DNA of 57,697 nt, taken from Hondaea fermentalgiana (taxonomy: Eukaryota; Sar; Bigyra; Thraustochytrida; Thraustochytriidae). A program made the position numbers and the translations under genes. Position 1 is the stretch's first letter. Each line of letters opens with the position of its first letter. The notes under the pieces are model-generated. The model was not told the DNA's origin. It ran no database searches and was given only the letters and a program-made list of their open reading frames with translations. This document shows positions 33,275 to 40,942 of this stretch, one piece after another. Location of the stretch: assembly GCA_014084085.1 (NCBI GenBank), contig NPFB01000030.1:92645-150341 (forward strand), read 5' to 3'.

Positions 33275-34738
33275 CTAGTCGTCCTTCTTGGAGGTCGCGG
33301 CGGCCGCGGCGTCGGCGTCGCCGGTAATGTCGATGAGGGTGTCTTCGACGACATAGCTGTTCAGCTGCGAGAACTCGCCCTTGGCGAGCGCAAAGCCGAA
33401 AGAAGCCACGAGAATGTACGGCACAATGTACAGCAGGGCTGGCTGCGCGTGGTTAAAAACGAGCATGACGAGCACCGTGGTGATGAGGCTCAGCGTGTAA
33501 GCCACCATGGTTACGTTGAGAAAGGAGTACGTCTGCGAAGCGGCAAAGGCCGGCCGACTCACGTCATACTTTGCCAAAAAGGCAATGGTGAGCCCAGGCA
33601 CGACAATGTCTCCAAGCCCCAGCATCGAGAACATCATGTTGCCGCAACCATCCTGGCCCCGTGGGAACATGAGCTTGATGGGCGCCTCCACGCCCGTGGC
33701 CACCGTCACCATGACGTTGCTGCCAAAGACCGACGTGCTGCCAAAAACCCAAAAGCAGTCGTACAAAAAGAGGCCCAAAAGCATGATGACACCCGTCCTG
33801 TACGAGGAAATGCCAATGTGCTTGATGCCCAACAGGCAAAATGACAGACCCATCATGTTGTTCACAATCCAGTTCTTGGTCTGCATGTAAAAGACGCCAA
33901 GCAGCGCCGAAATAATGTAGGCAACAATGTCGATCCACGTTACGTCAACGTCAAAGTACGGCACGCGAAAGAGCGTGCGGAACTGACCGAGACCACGACT
34001 GTTGTACCAGAGAGCCACAAACTGACCGAGATTGATGCCAAGACCGTTCGTGCACATGACCACCACGTAGCAGCTAAAGAGATACTTGATGAGGTCCGAG
34101 TCAATGTACTTGTAAATCACAAAGAGACCAAAGAGGACGGCCGATCCAATAACGGGGAAAAGGTATGCGTCCCCGTCCTGAAGGGCCGACTGGCCGACGT
34201 CTTCGTCGTTCTCTTCGTCCTCAACGTCGTTGGCATCGGGCCGGCAAAACAGCCACACCGAGTGCTTGCTCGCGAGATATACGCAAATGACCGAGAGAAT
34301 TAGCAAATGAATTGACGGCTGAAGCGCTTGCATCGAAAGCTTGCTCTCGTTCGCCTTGGCGTCACGTCGCTTGATCCATGCCGCGTTCTTGGGATGACCC
34401 ACCGGATACATGATGCTTTCGGGGTCCACGCCCTCGGGGACCTCAATCGCCGAATTCGAAATCCACTTGGATCCATCCGCGGAAAGGTGCTCGCCAAAGT
34501 GCGGGTGGCATTTCGGAAACGGGCCCAGCTCCACGGGGTCAAAGTCCTCCACGTGGATGAGCGAGCCGTCTTCCTTCTCGAAATACCCGGCCGGGACCTT
34601 GTGCGTCATGACCAGCGAGAGTCCTGCGAAAAACGCCAAGACGCCTCCCAGCAGAGCGTACAGCACGAGCAGCTGCGACCGCAGCGCCCGCGGCCTCACT
34701 GCGCGCTCGACCTCCGCGCTTTCGTCGTTGCTCGCCAT
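33275..34738 (-). CDS. Signal peptide peptidase (intramembrane aspartyl protease)
   Basis: A 487-residue multi-pass protein of the SPP/presenilin family, which cleaves leftover signal peptides and tail anchors inside the ER membrane. The catalytic motifs are present: FLYDCFW (YD, about residue 326), MLGLGDIVVPG (GxGD, about 374) and QPALLYIVP (PAL, about 433). The first membrane segment is at about 20-45. It is followed by an unusually long loop of about 90 residues that would face the lumen in the usual SPP topology. The protein ends KKDD, which fits the dilysine ER-retrieval signal KKXX. The start is the first ATG; upstream codons open only on TTG. It lies head-to-head with PEX14, and the two start codons are 622 bp apart. 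Confidence 0.93.
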   Translation of the reverse strand: MASNDESAEVERAVRPRALRSQLLVLYALLGGVLAFFAGLSLVMTHKVPAGYFEKEDGSLIHVEDFDPVELGPFPKCHPHFGEHLSADGSKWISNSAIEVPEGVDPESIMYPVGHPKNAAWIKRRDAKANESKLSMQALQPSIHLLILSVICVYLASKHSVWLFCRPDANDVEDEENDEDVGQSALQDGDAYLFPVIGSAVLFGLFVIYKYIDSDLIKYLFSCYVVVMCTNGLGINLGQFVALWYNSRGLGQFRTLFRVPYFDVDVTWIDIVAYIISALLGVFYMQTKNWIVNNMMGLSFCLLGIKHIGISSYRTGVIMLLGLFLYDCFWVFGSTSVFGSNVMVTVATGVEAPIKLMFPRGQDGCGNMMFSMLGLGDIVVPGLTIAFLAKYDVSRPAFAASQTYSFLNVTMVAYTLSLITTVLVMLVFNHAQPALLYIVPYILVASFGFALAKGEFSQLNSYVVEDTLIDITGDADAAAAATSKKDD

Positions 34739-35360
34739 GATGTTCTCCTTTTCGTTGCCTTCGTATCTTGCTTGCCCGCCCCCCAGTTTTTTCTCTCCTT
34801 CTTCGTCAGGCCAAGCCAGCGCGCAGGCGGGCGCGAGCACGAGGGCCAAGCAGAAGGCGCGCGCGCGCGACGCTGCGGCACGTGCAAAGGCCTCGTGACT
34901 GCGAGACTGTCTGAGCCCGGCGCGGTCCGGTGATTCTTTTTCTTCTTCTTCTTCTTCTTCTTCTTCTTCTTTCCTTCTTTCGTGGTCCTACAAAAAAAAA
35001 AGAAAAAAAAAAGAGAGAAAATGAAAAGAAAAAAGTGGCCCGAGCACGCGAGCGACGTCATAAGGCTCGCTCAAGAGCGGAAGATGTTCTTTCCCAAGAG
35101 CGCCGGCCGAGACGATGCTCGATACACGCAAGCTCTGTAAAAGCCTTAGCCGCACGAAGAGCAAAGCAAAACCCCTTGGCCTGGGCCTGGAAAGCTCGAC
35201 TTCCCGCGCTTGCTTGCTTGCTTGCTTGCTTGTTTGCTTGCTCACTCGGTCGCTCGCTCGCTCGCTCGACGGAGGAGACGAGCAGACGAGACTGCGCAGC
35301 ACCGCGCAGGGTGACCCGCGACCGCGCGAAGGAAAGGTGGTGTGGATTGAGGAGGTGAAT
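34739..35360. promoter_or_regulatory. Divergent promoter region between SPP and PEX14
   Basis: 622 bp separate the two start codons. It contains a TTC tract (34938-34977), A-rich runs (34990-35034), and GCTT then GCTC tetranucleotides (35205-35269). These repeat tracts may mark open chromatin, but no specific factor site can be named. An ATG at 35115 is in frame with PEX14, but its product would be Leu/Ala/Arg-rich repeat sequence and is treated as untranslated. Confidence 0.45.
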
Positions 35361-37805
35361 ATGAGGGAGGACCAGGTGTCCAATGGCGTCAGTTTCCTGA
35401 CGCACCCCAAGGTCCAACAGGCCCCGCTCGAAGAGCGACTCACCTTTCTGCGCAACAAGGGCCTCACCGAAGAAGAAATCGAAGAAGCCGTGCGCAGGTC
35501 TGAGAACCCAGATGGTGAAAGCGGCGAAAAAAGTGGCGCCGCCGCTGACCAAAATGCCGCGCAAGGGGGCCACGACCCCACCAGCGGCAACAGCAGCAAT
35601 GGCCAGGCCAAGGGAAACGGACAGCCACTTCCGCCTCACGCCAATGGCGGCCCGCCACGTTTCCAGGGCCTGCCCCCGCCTTCCGTGGACCAGTCTTCTT
35701 CATGGGTCTCCAAGTACCTGGTCCCAGGAACGTTGGCGCTCTCTGCAGGCGCAGGCATGGCGTTTCTTTACAAGACCATGGTTCTCAAGGAGAACATGGG
35801 TGGCCCACGACAGTGGTTTGGCCCCGGTCCTCCGCCACCCGGCGTGTATCCGGGTGTGCCTGTACAACAGCAGCAGCAACAACAGCAGCTTCAGGGACAG
35901 CCCATGCCTGGACAAAATCAGGCTCTCACTCAGCCCCAACAGCAACTGCAACAGCAAAGGTCGTCCTCGTCTCTGCCAGGTGCACCCGGCGCCATGGAGG
36001 CGCTTTTGAGCCAAGGCAAGAGCATCCCCAGTCTCGAGCAACTCGAAAAGGACCGCTCCTACAACAAGGATGACCATCAGTCCACCGCCATGACCACCTA
36101 CGATCCGTCCTCGTCCATGTTTGGAAGCGCCCCATATGGATCCGCGCAGGGACTCGGATCCGACCTCATGGCGCCCGGGTTCGATCCATCGGGCAGCGGA
36201 ACGGGTGCCTTGGGCGAAGTCGTGAAAAAGCAAACCGAGCTTCTTCAGGACGTGAGCAGCACTCTTAAATCTGTCACAAGCCAACTCGCCGACATCAAGG
36301 CGGACCGTGGAAATGGTGGCTTCGGCATTAGCACTTCGGGCGGCACGCAAGCCATGATTGCCAATCTCTCGCAGACCACGAGCGACCTCAAATCCGAACT
36401 CAACACGCTGAAAATGCTCATCCTCTCGGGCAAGCTCGGCGGTAGCGGCAATAGTAGTGATGGTGACGGCGCCCTGAGCGAGGAGGCAGTGCGCAAGCTC
36501 ATTGGCCCAATTGACGAAAAGCTCTCGCAACAGCAGCAAAACAAGAACCAGCTGGATCAGCTCATCAAAGCGACCTCCGGCGCTGCAACGGATGCCAGTG
36601 ACACCGCGTCTGCAAGCGGGGCTAATCAAGACGACGCGCAGGTTAGCGAGACTCCCGAGGCCAAGACCGACGACGATATTGCTCAGGAAAAGATGCATGC
36701 ATCACGCACGGCCTTGGCACAGCTTGTCGAGGCATGTCCCTCCGACAAGCTTCGCGTAGCCGTCAATGTCTTGCTGCTCTACCTGCGCAACCTGGTCAAG
36801 GATCCGGACGTGCCCCGCTACGGCCGTATTGCGCGTACGAATCAGAGTTATGTCAACAACCTTAGCAAGGTGGAGCACCACATGGATCTTCTCAAGGCTA
36901 ATGGTTTCGAGGAGCGTAACTCGGGAAGCCTCAGTCGAGCGCCGACGCTTGAGTGGTCCGAGGAGTGGCGAGAGAAAAAGGATGAGTGGGCCCTTCGCGT
37001 GCTCAAGGACACCATCGAGAATCTCGAAACTGTTCAAAAGCAGGGCGCTGCAGCGGCGCCCAAGCCTGCACCCGTCGAAGAAGCCGCGACGGAACAGCCG
37101 CCTGCGCCAGCAGAGGAAGCCCCCAAGCCCTCTCCTGCCCCTGCCGCCGCCAAGCCGGGTTTTGTTGCGCCTCCCTTCACCATTCCCGGTGTTTCACAGC
37201 CACCTGCTCAGCAAGCCGCCGCGCAGCAGCCCCAGCAGCAGCAGACTCCTGCTCAACAACCGCAGCAGCAAGCACCTGCGCCGCAGGAGGACAAGGACGC
37301 AGGGGCGGCAAATGGGGCACCAGAAGCCGCAAATGATCAGATTGCCGGCTCGTACCCTCTCTCGTACAAGGAGATCCTGGGATATGTTCAGCGGGACGAA
37401 AAGCCACCCGGTGTCCAGGATATTCCCAACAACCTTTCCAGTGATGAACCCACACCCTCATCCATGGCGCCCCCTCGCAAACCCTGGGAGAACCCTGCAA
37501 GCGAGGCAAGCAAGCAAGACCCTTCTGCAGCAGGCTCCATGGAGGGGAACCCATTCACTGCCTTCGCCAACGGCAATGGCAACGGCACGGACTACGCCGA
37601 GGACGTGTCATATCCAGGCTACATGGGTCGCTCCACGGCAACGATTGAAGAAATCAACGACGACGAGCCAGAAACTGAAACTGTTCCGCCACCGCAGAAC
37701 ACGTCTTCTGCAGAGAATGGTGTGCCATCGTCAGCATCAGCGCTCCCATTCCCAGAGGTCGGCTCTGCGAGCGAGGTTGCATCCGCCGCGCCCTCAGGTC
37801 CTTGA
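35361..37805 (+). CDS. PEX14: Peroxin-14 with an internal PUB domain
   Basis: PEX14 is the peroxisomal membrane docking protein for the PEX5-cargo complex. Residues 1-48 match the PEX14 N-terminal domain (REDQVSNGVSFLTHPKVQ, then RNKGLTEEEIEEA), with the Phe residues that bind PEX5 WxxxF/Y motifs. A membrane segment lies at about 113-138 (YLVPGTLALSAGAGMAFLY). A Gln-rich and coiled-coil part follows (about 170-400). Residues about 445-530 match a PUB domain (VNVLLLYLRNLVKDPDVPRY, then GRIARTNQSYVNNL, then LLKANGF), aligning with the PNGase PUB. A Pro/Ala/Gln linker leads to YPLSYKEILGYVQRDEKPPG (about 668), the conserved C-terminal motif of plant-type PEX14. The 814 residues are about twice the human length. 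The start is placed at the first residues of the domain, with A at -3. Confidence 0.9.
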   Translation: MREDQVSNGVSFLTHPKVQQAPLEERLTFLRNKGLTEEEIEEAVRRSENPDGESGEKSGAAADQNAAQGGHDPTSGNSSNGQAKGNGQPLPPHANGGPPRFQGLPPPSVDQSSSWVSKYLVPGTLALSAGAGMAFLYKTMVLKENMGGPRQWFGPGPPPPGVYPGVPVQQQQQQQQLQGQPMPGQNQALTQPQQQLQQQRSSSSLPGAPGAMEALLSQGKSIPSLEQLEKDRSYNKDDHQSTAMTTYDPSSSMFGSAPYGSAQGLGSDLMAPGFDPSGSGTGALGEVVKKQTELLQDVSSTLKSVTSQLADIKADRGNGGFGISTSGGTQAMIANLSQTTSDLKSELNTLKMLILSGKLGGSGNSSDGDGALSEEAVRKLIGPIDEKLSQQQQNKNQLDQLIKATSGAATDASDTASASGANQDDAQVSETPEAKTDDDIAQEKMHASRTALAQLVEACPSDKLRVAVNVLLLYLRNLVKDPDVPRYGRIARTNQSYVNNLSKVEHHMDLLKANGFEERNSGSLSRAPTLEWSEEWREKKDEWALRVLKDTIENLETVQKQGAAAAPKPAPVEEAATEQPPAPAEEAPKPSPAPAAAKPGFVAPPFTIPGVSQPPAQQAAAQQPQQQQTPAQQPQQQAPAPQEDKDAGAANGAPEAANDQIAGSYPLSYKEILGYVQRDEKPPGVQDIPNNLSSDEPTPSSMAPPRKPWENPASEASKQDPSAAGSMEGNPFTAFANGNGNGTDYAEDVSYPGYMGRSTATIEEINDDEPETETVPPPQNTSSAENGVPSSASALPFPEVGSASEVASAAPSGP

Positions 37806-38020
37806 TTGTCCATTCTTGCGTATTGCTAAGCTTTTAACTTATACCGTCAGACATGCTCATCGTCATTGTTGCTTCTCGTTCGCTTGCTTGCTTGCTTGTT
37901 TTGACTGCAGCAGCAAAAGACAATGGTGTTGTGGTCCTCTCAACCCGCGTCATCTCCTTCACAGGCTGTTGCAAAAGAAGAAACACTTCAAACAAAGCAG
38001 TTCTCGTTCTTTTGGCGAGC

Positions 38021-40942
38021 ATGCCAGGAGGCTTCGAGTCTGGGCCAGGCGCCAGTGACATCCTTGGCGCCTCCGATGTGCGCGCAAAGCACGAAGAGCG
38101 GGCCGAAGCTCCTGACGCTGCGCATGACACCGTAAGGGCCTCGTCCTCAAGCGCAACGTCGGCGTCCATGGCAGCATCAGCACCAGCGGTCGTGGACCTC
38201 GTGAGTGATGAGGAGAGCCTAGTGGGCGACAGGAACAACGAAAACGGCGACAAAAGCGACGAGAAAGAGCAGCATAGAGCTCACGTCAACGACTGCGATG
38301 GACCTTTGGAAGGTACCGCTTCAGATCAGACGGCTCAACGCGGATTGGACAGCCCTCAGCCTTCAAATCGTGCGAAATCACAACCCAATGTGGTGGTGGA
38401 CCTTGATCTCACCAACTCTCCACGGCGCTTGTCCAAAGGAACTCATGCAAAAGCCAAAGGCAAGCGCCAGCAGCATGCCAGTGCACAATGGGGCGCCTTG
38501 CTCACAGGATCTGCCAAGAAGAAACCTACTGGAATCAAGGACGACTCGCTCCTCACCGCTGTCGCTCCCGTCGACACCTGGGGAATGGTGGTGGACGCCA
38601 AGTGGCGTGCAGATTTTCAGAGCTTGACACCAATGGAGCGGAATATCCAGCAGACACTCAAGTACATGAGTTTGGAAACAGGCGGACCCTACACGCCAGC
38701 CTTTGCACTCGCCGACGGCATTTCGGAGCAGGCTTTTCGTCCTCCAGGTAGTGGATCCTACGCCTTTGACAGATTACGCAGCGCCCGTAGCCAGCACATC
38801 GCCGCACCTACCTGGCAACTCTGTGCCCCAAACCTACACGTGGCTATTCTCGCATATCTTGACATGACGGCGCGCTCACTCCAAGGTCACCTCGATCCAA
38901 GCGTTGACGAACTGTACCAGGGCTTGGCGGCAATGGTCCAGCACGAGACGCATCGTGCAGAATCACTTGGCTTCCGAATTCTCGCTGCACTCTTTTACTC
39001 GCGGACGCGCTGGGTTTCAGAGGACCAGCTCGTTGAGCGATGGCGGCTTGCACCTCTTGATGAAGAATCAAACCTTGCAGACACCGTGCGTGAATTGTGT
39101 CGTGCGGGTCATGTCCGCTCCACACCATCTAATCTTGCAGATTGCCTGGACATGCTTCAATCTTGCACTCGAGGTCTACTTTTGCAGCTTGCGCCGCTGC
39201 AGCGATGCGGTCTGAGCAGCGCAACCAAGGGTCAAGTGATGGCATTCATTGCTGAAAAGGGAATCAACTTTGCTCGTAAACTCTGTTCCTCCATTTCTTC
39301 TCGTCTCGTGCGCCTCTCTGATGGGACGCGAGGTCACTTACGTCGGTGCATGGTGCATCTCTTTGCTCACACGGGCTACAGCAGCGAAGAGACACGGTAT
39401 CTCTTGCGACACGTTTCGCTCGCCGATCTTTCCTTTGCAGGTTCTCCACCTTCTGCGGTCGCCTTTGGCAATCTTGCAGCCAATTTGCCTTCAAAGCAAG
39501 AACAAGAGCAAAAGCAGGTCGGGAATGCCGAAGCAACCTCCCGCTGTCTACAAAGAATCCAGCAACGTGAAGATTATTTCAGAGCTGTCGATTTTTCAGG
39601 GAAACTTTCGCTCTACGCTGCACAAGGAGACGCCGGGCGCGCGTACCGTGTCTTACACGAGGCCTCGAGTCGACTGATGCGTATGCTTGATGGTGCTGAA
39701 ACGTTCCAGCTTCGCGAGCTACATGCGCTGGCTCGAGTTTGCTTGACGGGGTGTCAATTGCTAGAACGCGAGCGACGGTACGCGGACACAGAGCATTATC
39801 TGCGCATGATTATTCAGAGTACGGGTCATCACAAGGAACTCGTCATGGTTCACTGCGAGGCGCTCCTTCGCTTAGTTCAAGATCTGATTCATCGGAATGC
39901 CAGAACAGCTGCGCTAAAGCTCGTGGAAGAGGCTTTGCGTCAAGACGCGTGGGTGCTGGGGTGTGCCTTGCATCCGGCCAACGAGTCGCCAAATCGTCTT
40001 GGGGGAACTGGGGCTGCGCTAATGGGACGTTGCGTCCGCTTGAGCGTTCCACCGCGTCGCTGGCGTTTGGCCATTCAAGATGCAGCGCGTCTCAACGCCC
40101 CACGTCTCGTCCATATTTCTGCTGAGCGCGCCAACCAAGCGATTGGGAGGCAGTCCTCTGGGGGCAGTGCTGGAGGTGGGTCGCAGACTGGGAAACCTGT
40201 CAAGGCGAGTTGGGAGACCGCATCCACGGTGGAAGGGGTGGTCCTGGAGCACTTTCAACGCCACGGCGGCTGGTCCGGGATTCATTGCGAAAACGGATTC
40301 GGCATTACTGTATACACGCTCATATTTTGGGACATCATCTTCGATCTCAACGCCCCGCACGCTGAGCGCCACAGTGCCTTTGTCGAAATGCCTCGCGCTG
40401 CTGCAGATGGGACGTGGTTACGATACCCGGCGACGCGTCAAGCTGTGGAAGCGCGCCTTGCCGCCATCGCAGACGAAGGAATGGGACGAGGTCTCATTCG
40501 CGAACGCGTCGAGGCCGCATGGGACCGCGCGACTGCAACGCATGCTCGCGGTGTAAATCTCGATCGTTTGTCACTGCAGGACACTTTGTTTGTTCTGACG
40601 GGTATTTCGCTTCATGCGATTGCCATGATATGCTCCCTCTTCGCAGAGAACTACAAGGCCTGGAATGGCGGACTTCCCGATCTTATGCTTTGGCGAACAC
40701 AAACCAACGTCGTCGTTATCGCAAAAGACGAAGTCGAAGAAATCTCGGCCAGCTCAGATGGGGAGCCTCAGCGACAAGAACAACAGCAAGAGGTTGCAGA
40801 AACGTGTTTCATCGAGGTCAAGGGTCCAGGCGACAGTCTGAGTGATCGTCAACGCGCTTGGATCGACAAGCTGACCCAGGCAGGAGCTGACGTATCTGTG
40901 TGTCACGTCAAGGCTGTTGCAGTTTCCTCGGCACCCACCTGA
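38021..40942 (+). CDS. FAN1: FAN1-type structure-specific nuclease (VRR-NUC)
   Basis: FAN1 is a 5' flap endonuclease and 5'-3' exonuclease for interstrand crosslink repair. The 973-residue frame has a disordered N-terminus, then SAP/TPR-like helical regions, then VRR-NUC. Near 40235 it reads VVLEHFQRHGGWSGIHCENG followed by FWDIIF, matching FAN1 proteins. The nuclease centre is GLPDLMLW (about 40670) and CFIEVKGPGDSLSDRQ (about 40805), giving the P-D and E-V-K residues of a PD-(D/E)XK site, and it ends DVSVCHVKAVAV. An acidic insertion of about 25 residues lies between them. No UBZ zinc finger is visible; instead two SUMO-interaction-like motifs occur (VVDLVSDEE about 56, VVVDLDL about 122). 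An earlier in-frame ATG at 37853 is possible, but I prefer 38021, which has A at -3. Confidence 0.9.
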   Translation: MPGGFESGPGASDILGASDVRAKHEERAEAPDAAHDTVRASSSSATSASMAASAPAVVDLVSDEESLVGDRNNENGDKSDEKEQHRAHVNDCDGPLEGTASDQTAQRGLDSPQPSNRAKSQPNVVVDLDLTNSPRRLSKGTHAKAKGKRQQHASAQWGALLTGSAKKKPTGIKDDSLLTAVAPVDTWGMVVDAKWRADFQSLTPMERNIQQTLKYMSLETGGPYTPAFALADGISEQAFRPPGSGSYAFDRLRSARSQHIAAPTWQLCAPNLHVAILAYLDMTARSLQGHLDPSVDELYQGLAAMVQHETHRAESLGFRILAALFYSRTRWVSEDQLVERWRLAPLDEESNLADTVRELCRAGHVRSTPSNLADCLDMLQSCTRGLLLQLAPLQRCGLSSATKGQVMAFIAEKGINFARKLCSSISSRLVRLSDGTRGHLRRCMVHLFAHTGYSSEETRYLLRHVSLADLSFAGSPPSAVAFGNLAANLPSKQEQEQKQVGNAEATSRCLQRIQQREDYFRAVDFSGKLSLYAAQGDAGRAYRVLHEASSRLMRMLDGAETFQLRELHALARVCLTGCQLLERERRYADTEHYLRMIIQSTGHHKELVMVHCEALLRLVQDLIHRNARTAALKLVEEALRQDAWVLGCALHPANESPNRLGGTGAALMGRCVRLSVPPRRWRLAIQDAARLNAPRLVHISAERANQAIGRQSSGGSAGGGSQTGKPVKASWETASTVEGVVLEHFQRHGGWSGIHCENGFGITVYTLIFWDIIFDLNAPHAERHSAFVEMPRAAADGTWLRYPATRQAVEARLAAIADEGMGRGLIRERVEAAWDRATATHARGVNLDRLSLQDTLFVLTGISLHAIAMICSLFAENYKAWNGGLPDLMLWRTQTNVVVIAKDEVEEISASSDGEPQRQEQQQEVAETCFIEVKGPGDSLSDRQRAWIDKLTQAGADVSVCHVKAVAVSSAPT

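Follow-up and report, generated by a model that had tools for sequence, protein, structure and literature searches.

A PUB domain within PEX14 of Hondaea fermentalgiana and its possible role as a docking site for CDC48

The DNA analyzed here, referred to as the window, is a stretch of 57,697 nucleotides from Hondaea fermentalgiana, in which one open frame encodes a peroxin PEX14 that also carries a PUB domain (PEX14-PUB). The features of this frame are as follows:

35361-37805, forward strand: coding sequence of PEX14-PUB, a single open frame of 814 aa and a terminal stop codon, without internal stop
35364-35495, forward strand: Pex14_N domain, aa 2-45 (PF04695, E 1.8e-12, 47.1 bits, over the cut-off)
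35712-35786, forward strand: presumed membrane segment, moderately hydrophobic, about aa 118-142 (Kyte-Doolittle hydropathy)
36702-37040, forward strand: likely full PUB domain, aa 448-560 (alignments with the PNGase PUB and with 12 PUB matches of the same genome)
36744-36923, forward strand: PUB domain as matched by Pfam, aa 462-521 (PF09409, E 8.3e-10, 38.9 bits)
36780-36842, forward strand: ligand pocket residues Y474, N477, Y487, A491 and N494 (published pocket rule)
37350-37490, forward strand: PEX14-like KPWE_dom, aa 664-710 (PF17733, E 5.3e-16, over the cut-off)

Upstream and divergent to PEX14-PUB lies a gene for signal peptide peptidase, an ER protease (frame 33275-34987, opposite strand; PF04258, E 2.9e-68), and downstream lies a gene for a VRR-NUC protein (frame 37838-40942). 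An Rfam search of the whole window gave 0 matches.

The N-terminal Pex14_N is the PEX5-docking domain of PEX14. It is followed by the stretch at aa 118-142, which we take to be the membrane segment, presumably placed after Pex14_N as it is in other PEX14 proteins. The initial annotation had named a membrane segment; the hydrophobicity of this stretch is moderate, with a weak best 19-residue Kyte-Doolittle mean of 1.32 at aa 124. The KPWE_dom holds YPLSYKEILGYVQ...KPPG as well as KPWE, and the PUB domain is placed between Pex14_N and KPWE_dom, with all three in one frame. The uninterrupted frame combining PEX14 parts with a PUB, as first described, is correct in its extent, domain order and coordinates, and the box originally drawn at 36690-36930 encloses the PUB match. 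The KPWE_dom has a single match genome-wide, and a 1101-base query (36300-37400) finds itself as its sole DNA match in the 36.0-Mb genome. One PEX14 with both Pex14_N and KPWE was found in the genome, and its PUB lies C-terminal to the presumed membrane segment.

Pex14_N, KPWE_dom and, presumably, the membrane segment are shared with PEX14 of plants, animals and fungi; in contrast to these proteins, a PUB here lies between Pex14_N and KPWE_dom. In a survey of peroxins that includes two stramenopiles, the main-text table gives PEX14 only the Pex14_N domain (PMC8172628), and a PEX14 ortholog is named in the stramenopile Nannochloropsis, with no domain given in the part of that source bearing on it (PMC7710942). 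The KPWE motif of PEX39 and PEX13 is reported to bind PEX7, and of the proteins known to interact with PEX7 in yeast and humans, these two alone are described as carrying it (PMC12339391). PEX14-PUB itself carries KPWE, within 37350-37490.

The identity of the PUB segment was assessed with two profiles. Against the Pfam cut-off of 34.3 bits, the PUB scores 38.9 bits within the whole protein and 42.6 bits as an excised piece, both above the cut-off; this match spans profile positions 2-61 of 82, and because it ends at position 61, the domain probably continues to about aa 560. As a control, the genome's remaining 12 PUB matches were realigned without PEX14 into a profile of their own, which scores 36.9 bits on PEX14-PUB, compared with 4.4 bits for the best of 2000 shuffled versions of PEX14 and 6.1 bits for the best window frame besides PEX14 (529 frames of at least 60 codons and with no more than 20 unknown residues, PEX14's included). 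Given the Pfam score and an independent profile far above its controls, the PUB domain inside PEX14 is established at the level of sequence. Searching the sequences of solved structures with the segment brings up the PNGase PUB first (E 0.018), HOIP next, and UBXD1 at E 0.7. The alignment with the human PNGase PUB put forward in the initial annotation is upheld over 72 query residues, but it contains one gap, having been described as gap-free, and E 0.018 is weak when taken alone.

Two single-sequence structure models were of poor quality (pLDDT 62.9 and 53.1). Helices are seen across aa 448-560 in a low-confidence model, and the likely domain takes in a last helix past the end of the Pfam match. 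Structure searches with the first model (pLDDT 62.9) gave uninformative matches, to helical bundles, with no PUB among the 50 matches listed per aligner. This result would suit a segment that resembles PUB by chance, or two genes joined by an assembly error; such an artefact is very improbable, as it is opposed by the Pfam and independent profile scores with their controls, by the presence of three domains in one open frame with the PUB flanked by both PEX14 domains, and by a GC content at third codon positions of 0.68 in the PUB segment, inside the 0.56 to 0.74 of the remaining segments.

How a PUB domain holds its ligand has been described in a study of the UBXD1 PUB. UBXD1 and PNGase have the pocket core, YxxN(x)9Y, in common, whereas the K/RxxN motif is also present in HOIP; the two tyrosines and the first asparagine grip the tyrosine of the p97 tail, and K/RxxN grips its free C-terminus, with the cornerstone asparagine being N58 in PNGase, N201 in UBXD1 and N102 in HOIP (as given in PMC6995525). 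The pocket sequence of PEX14-PUB is LLLYLRNLVKDPDVPRYGRIARTN, which contains YxxN(x)9Y in exact spacing (Y474, N477 and Y487) and the cornerstone asparagine (N494), so that PEX14-PUB keeps four of the rule's five residues. The tyrosine and asparagine of the PNGase block, noted from the outset as conserved, correspond to Y487 and N494, and the first pocket tyrosine and asparagine, Y474 and N477, had escaped notice and are kept too. Among the 13 PUB matches of the genome, aligned with the columns of one row (L039) possibly shifted by an insertion, the full YxxN(x)9Y occurs in PEX14-PUB only, and PEX14-PUB alone retains both pocket tyrosines and both asparagines. In essence, PEX14-PUB shares the cornerstone asparagine with the PUBs of PNGase (NGLY1), UBXD1 (UBXN6) and HOIP (RNF31), and YxxN(x)9Y with those of UBXD1 and PNGase; it differs from all three in that the Arg/Lys clamp is replaced by Ala491 and the carrier is a peroxin.

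The missing fifth residue is the Arg or Lys three positions ahead of the cornerstone asparagine, where Ala491 occupies the position of PNGase Arg55. Arg492 adjoins it, one place later, and may or may not take over the clamp role. Across the 13 PUB matches, the Arg55 column holds Arg or Lys in seven, Asn in four and Ala in two. Because of Ala491 at the clamp site, we file the segment as a PUB domain and not as a proven tail-binding PUB. Changing Arg55 abolished the binding of p97 by PNGase, as told in PMC6995525, and the lost Arg clamp is the main doubt on a simple p97 reading.

A tail that would match a tail-binding PUB is encoded in this genome. The CDC48 gene (contig C29) encodes CDC48_N, CDC48_2 and two AAA stretches, and its product ends in DDDDEEDLYS, of which EEDLYS is a canonical PUB ligand. 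Scanning the genome for tails of the form [DE][DE]D-(F/L/I/M/V)-Y-x-stop, gave nine hits. Two of them have TGG in place of a stop, five close short frames (10 to 154 codons), and the other two close frames of more than 400 codons. As the scan took no account of introns, one of the short frames could belong to a spliced gene. The two long frames are CDC48 and a frame of 410 codons on contig C206 (L056:289-1518:+), which has no Pfam match, an acidic region and, by eye, a hydrophobic stretch. Its tail, EEDLYF, is a second PUB-ligand-like tail beside that of CDC48.

The tails of PEX1 and PEX6 were compared as well, as the initial annotation had proposed, and neither fits as a PUB ligand. PEX1 (C40; PEX-1N, E 1.1e-23) has the C-terminus GYPDGKQRTALK and is ruled out by its tail, GKQRTALK. 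PEX6 (C234, L035:1168-4335:+; PEX6_4th, E 4.2e-12) has the C-terminus WSWEKDGESARA and is ruled out by its zinc-finger-like end, its two [DE][LMF]Y strings lying within the AAA and lid domains. This end of PEX6, RLCPHCKTPTLKEGGCDAMVCPVCTKEWSWE, resembles a zinc finger of the IBR kind (IBR_2, E 2.1e-5; its 25.0 bits fall slightly short of the cut-off, 27), and a finger of the IBR type, if that is what the match represents, is unexpected on PEX6.

With the Arg clamp missing, the pocket could be open to an internal or different PUB-interacting motif, in the style of HOIP and OTULIN, which would link PEX14 to a deubiquitinase or another peroxisomal protein. PNGase R55A, altered at the site occupied here by Ala491, is reported to gain binding to the internal motif of OTULIN (PMC4017264), and the EEDLYF tail may offer a different ligand of similar type. 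However, loss of the clamp is unnecessary for such binding, since HOIP retains K/RxxN and takes both internal motifs and the p97 tail (PMC6995525), and the link from clamp to ligand type is therefore not strict. Also opposing an internal motif, in a check that covered PEX1, PEX6, PEX14 and a protein of this genome with 11 Pex14_N domains, the string [DE][LMF]Y is absent from all but PEX6, whose two strings sit where noted above. Frames of 654 and 358 aa encode RING peroxins in this genome. On this evidence, we consider an internal or different motif unlikely.

A further alternative is that the PUB serves as a structural or protein-protein module that takes no PUB-interacting peptide, or binds ubiquitin or a ubiquitin-like domain by another face. 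There are precedents for both, as the SPATA2 PUB binds the USP domain of CYLD and the PNGase PUB contacts the UBL of HR23 (PMC6995525). The genome itself also lends this some weight, as 12 of its 13 PUB matches lack the full YxxN(x)9Y, and such PUBs are common here. PEX14-PUB, however, keeps all of the pocket tyrosines and asparagines, where SPATA2 has lost the first tyrosine (PMC6995525), and we regard this alternative as rather unlikely. Counting PEX14, 12 of the 13 matches exceed the cut-off, and one of the 12 does so only when its neighbors are taken with it. The others lie on 10 further PUB-bearing frames, five of which have domains of the ubiquitin or CDC48 pathways (UBA; OTU; C97 with ubiquitin; TUG-UBL with UBX; and WLM, a class that we count among these pathways), so PUB in this genome does occur on proteins of those pathways. 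In one of the ten, a frame of 6469 codons on C147, the 2499-codon part that was scanned (L038:3-7499:-) contains three PUB domains amid EF-hands and Tudor-like domains.

The explanation we prefer is that the PUB of PEX14 would keep CDC48 at the docking complex by its C-terminal tail, which, as a whole, we place just short of an even chance; that PEX14-PUB binds CDC48 at all is about an even proposition. The p97 tether suggested in the initial annotation is plausible; it gains from the DDDDEEDLYS tail and the four pocket residues, and loses from Ala491 in place of Arg55. Human PEX14 is described as having its N-terminus inside and its C-terminus outside, and yeast PEX14 with PEX17 as forming a cytosol-exposed rod of about 20 nm (PMC8172628). 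If the human topology is valid here, the PUB-bearing part would face the cytosol. The pocket would then take the Leu-Tyr of the CDC48 tail EEDLYS, weakly for any single tail, although PEX14 oligomers and the six tails of CDC48 could together provide avidity. Held at the docking complex, CDC48 would extract or unfold ubiquitinated PEX5 beyond the recycling by PEX1-PEX6, or might alternatively serve in the turnover of docking components. Since a PUB grips CDC48 on its C-terminal side (D2, the exit), the long flexible flanks would need to leave the entry side free to approach the membrane; another option is that the PUB may act after extraction. This geometry calls for caution, as it counts against a CDC48 tether.

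A close counterpart is PUX10 of Arabidopsis chloroplasts and peroxisomes, which holds CDC48 at organelle import machinery, as PEX14-PUB would (PMC11410653, PMC13411790); CDC48A and PUX10 are reported to mediate the breakdown of peroxisomal PEX5 and CAT3 (PMC13411790). PEX14-PUB would thus be a membrane-anchored CDC48 adaptor resembling PUX10 but gripping the opposite end of CDC48, as PUX10 has a UBA and binds the CDC48 N-domain through its UBX, whereas PEX14-PUB is predicted to bind the C-terminal tail and is itself import machinery. In Leishmania, the VCP tail DDLYS is the modeled ligand of PUB1, and pull-downs of the VCP cofactor FAF2 contain PEX2, PEX10 and PEX11 (PMC7403338). There, PUB1 and FAF2 are separate cofactors, whereas in PEX14-PUB the PUB sits on the peroxin. 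Of two p97 inhibitors applied to mammalian cells, NMS-873 strongly exposes the N-domain of PEX14 and CB-5083 barely does so, and the authors attribute the change in PEX14 topology to Pex6 (PMC12925559). The near-null effect of CB-5083 would count against a CDC48 tether. The Arabidopsis, Leishmania and mammalian data lend mixed support to p97 at peroxisomes in general, and not to PEX14-PUB. VCP is also reported to extract MITOL from mitochondria before MITOL arrives at peroxisomes, with no evident bearing on PEX14 (PMC6893362), and PMC5447069 makes no mention of Pex14.

PEX14-PUB is a new domain combination by its sequence, with an unexpected and functionally suggestive domain on a familiar peroxin. 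The initial annotation was aware of no earlier account of a PUB in PEX14, which agrees with the open-access literature, where no paper was found under both "PEX14" and "PUB domain" (the names searched, and not the older "PUG domain"); the fusion may nevertheless be known already or common in other species. It bears on the question of the route by which CDC48/p97 arrives at peroxisomes and of a possible division of labor with PEX1-PEX6; among the points yet to be examined, a 2026 commentary lists what CDC48 does to PEX13 and PEX14 (PMC13411790). PEX14-PUB makes this question a peptide-pocket test with single residues to mutate. That the docking complex of this lineage has its own CDC48 receptor in PEX14, placing an ERAD-type motor beside PEX1-PEX6 and perhaps a second extraction route, is a tentative and somewhat doubtful proposal; if true, it would be a present-day instance of the kinship that has been proposed for ERAD and import into peroxisomes.

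Eleven more matches to Pex14_N occur in this genome, all on one frame of 1933 codons (C182:258153-263951; L030:1154-6952:-), whose whole-protein E is 2.3e-93 and in which no further Pfam family passes its cut-off. This protein ends in SSSCRL, and its CRL is similar to a PTS1 signal. One possible role is that of a soluble series of domains for docking PEX5, perhaps within the peroxisome.
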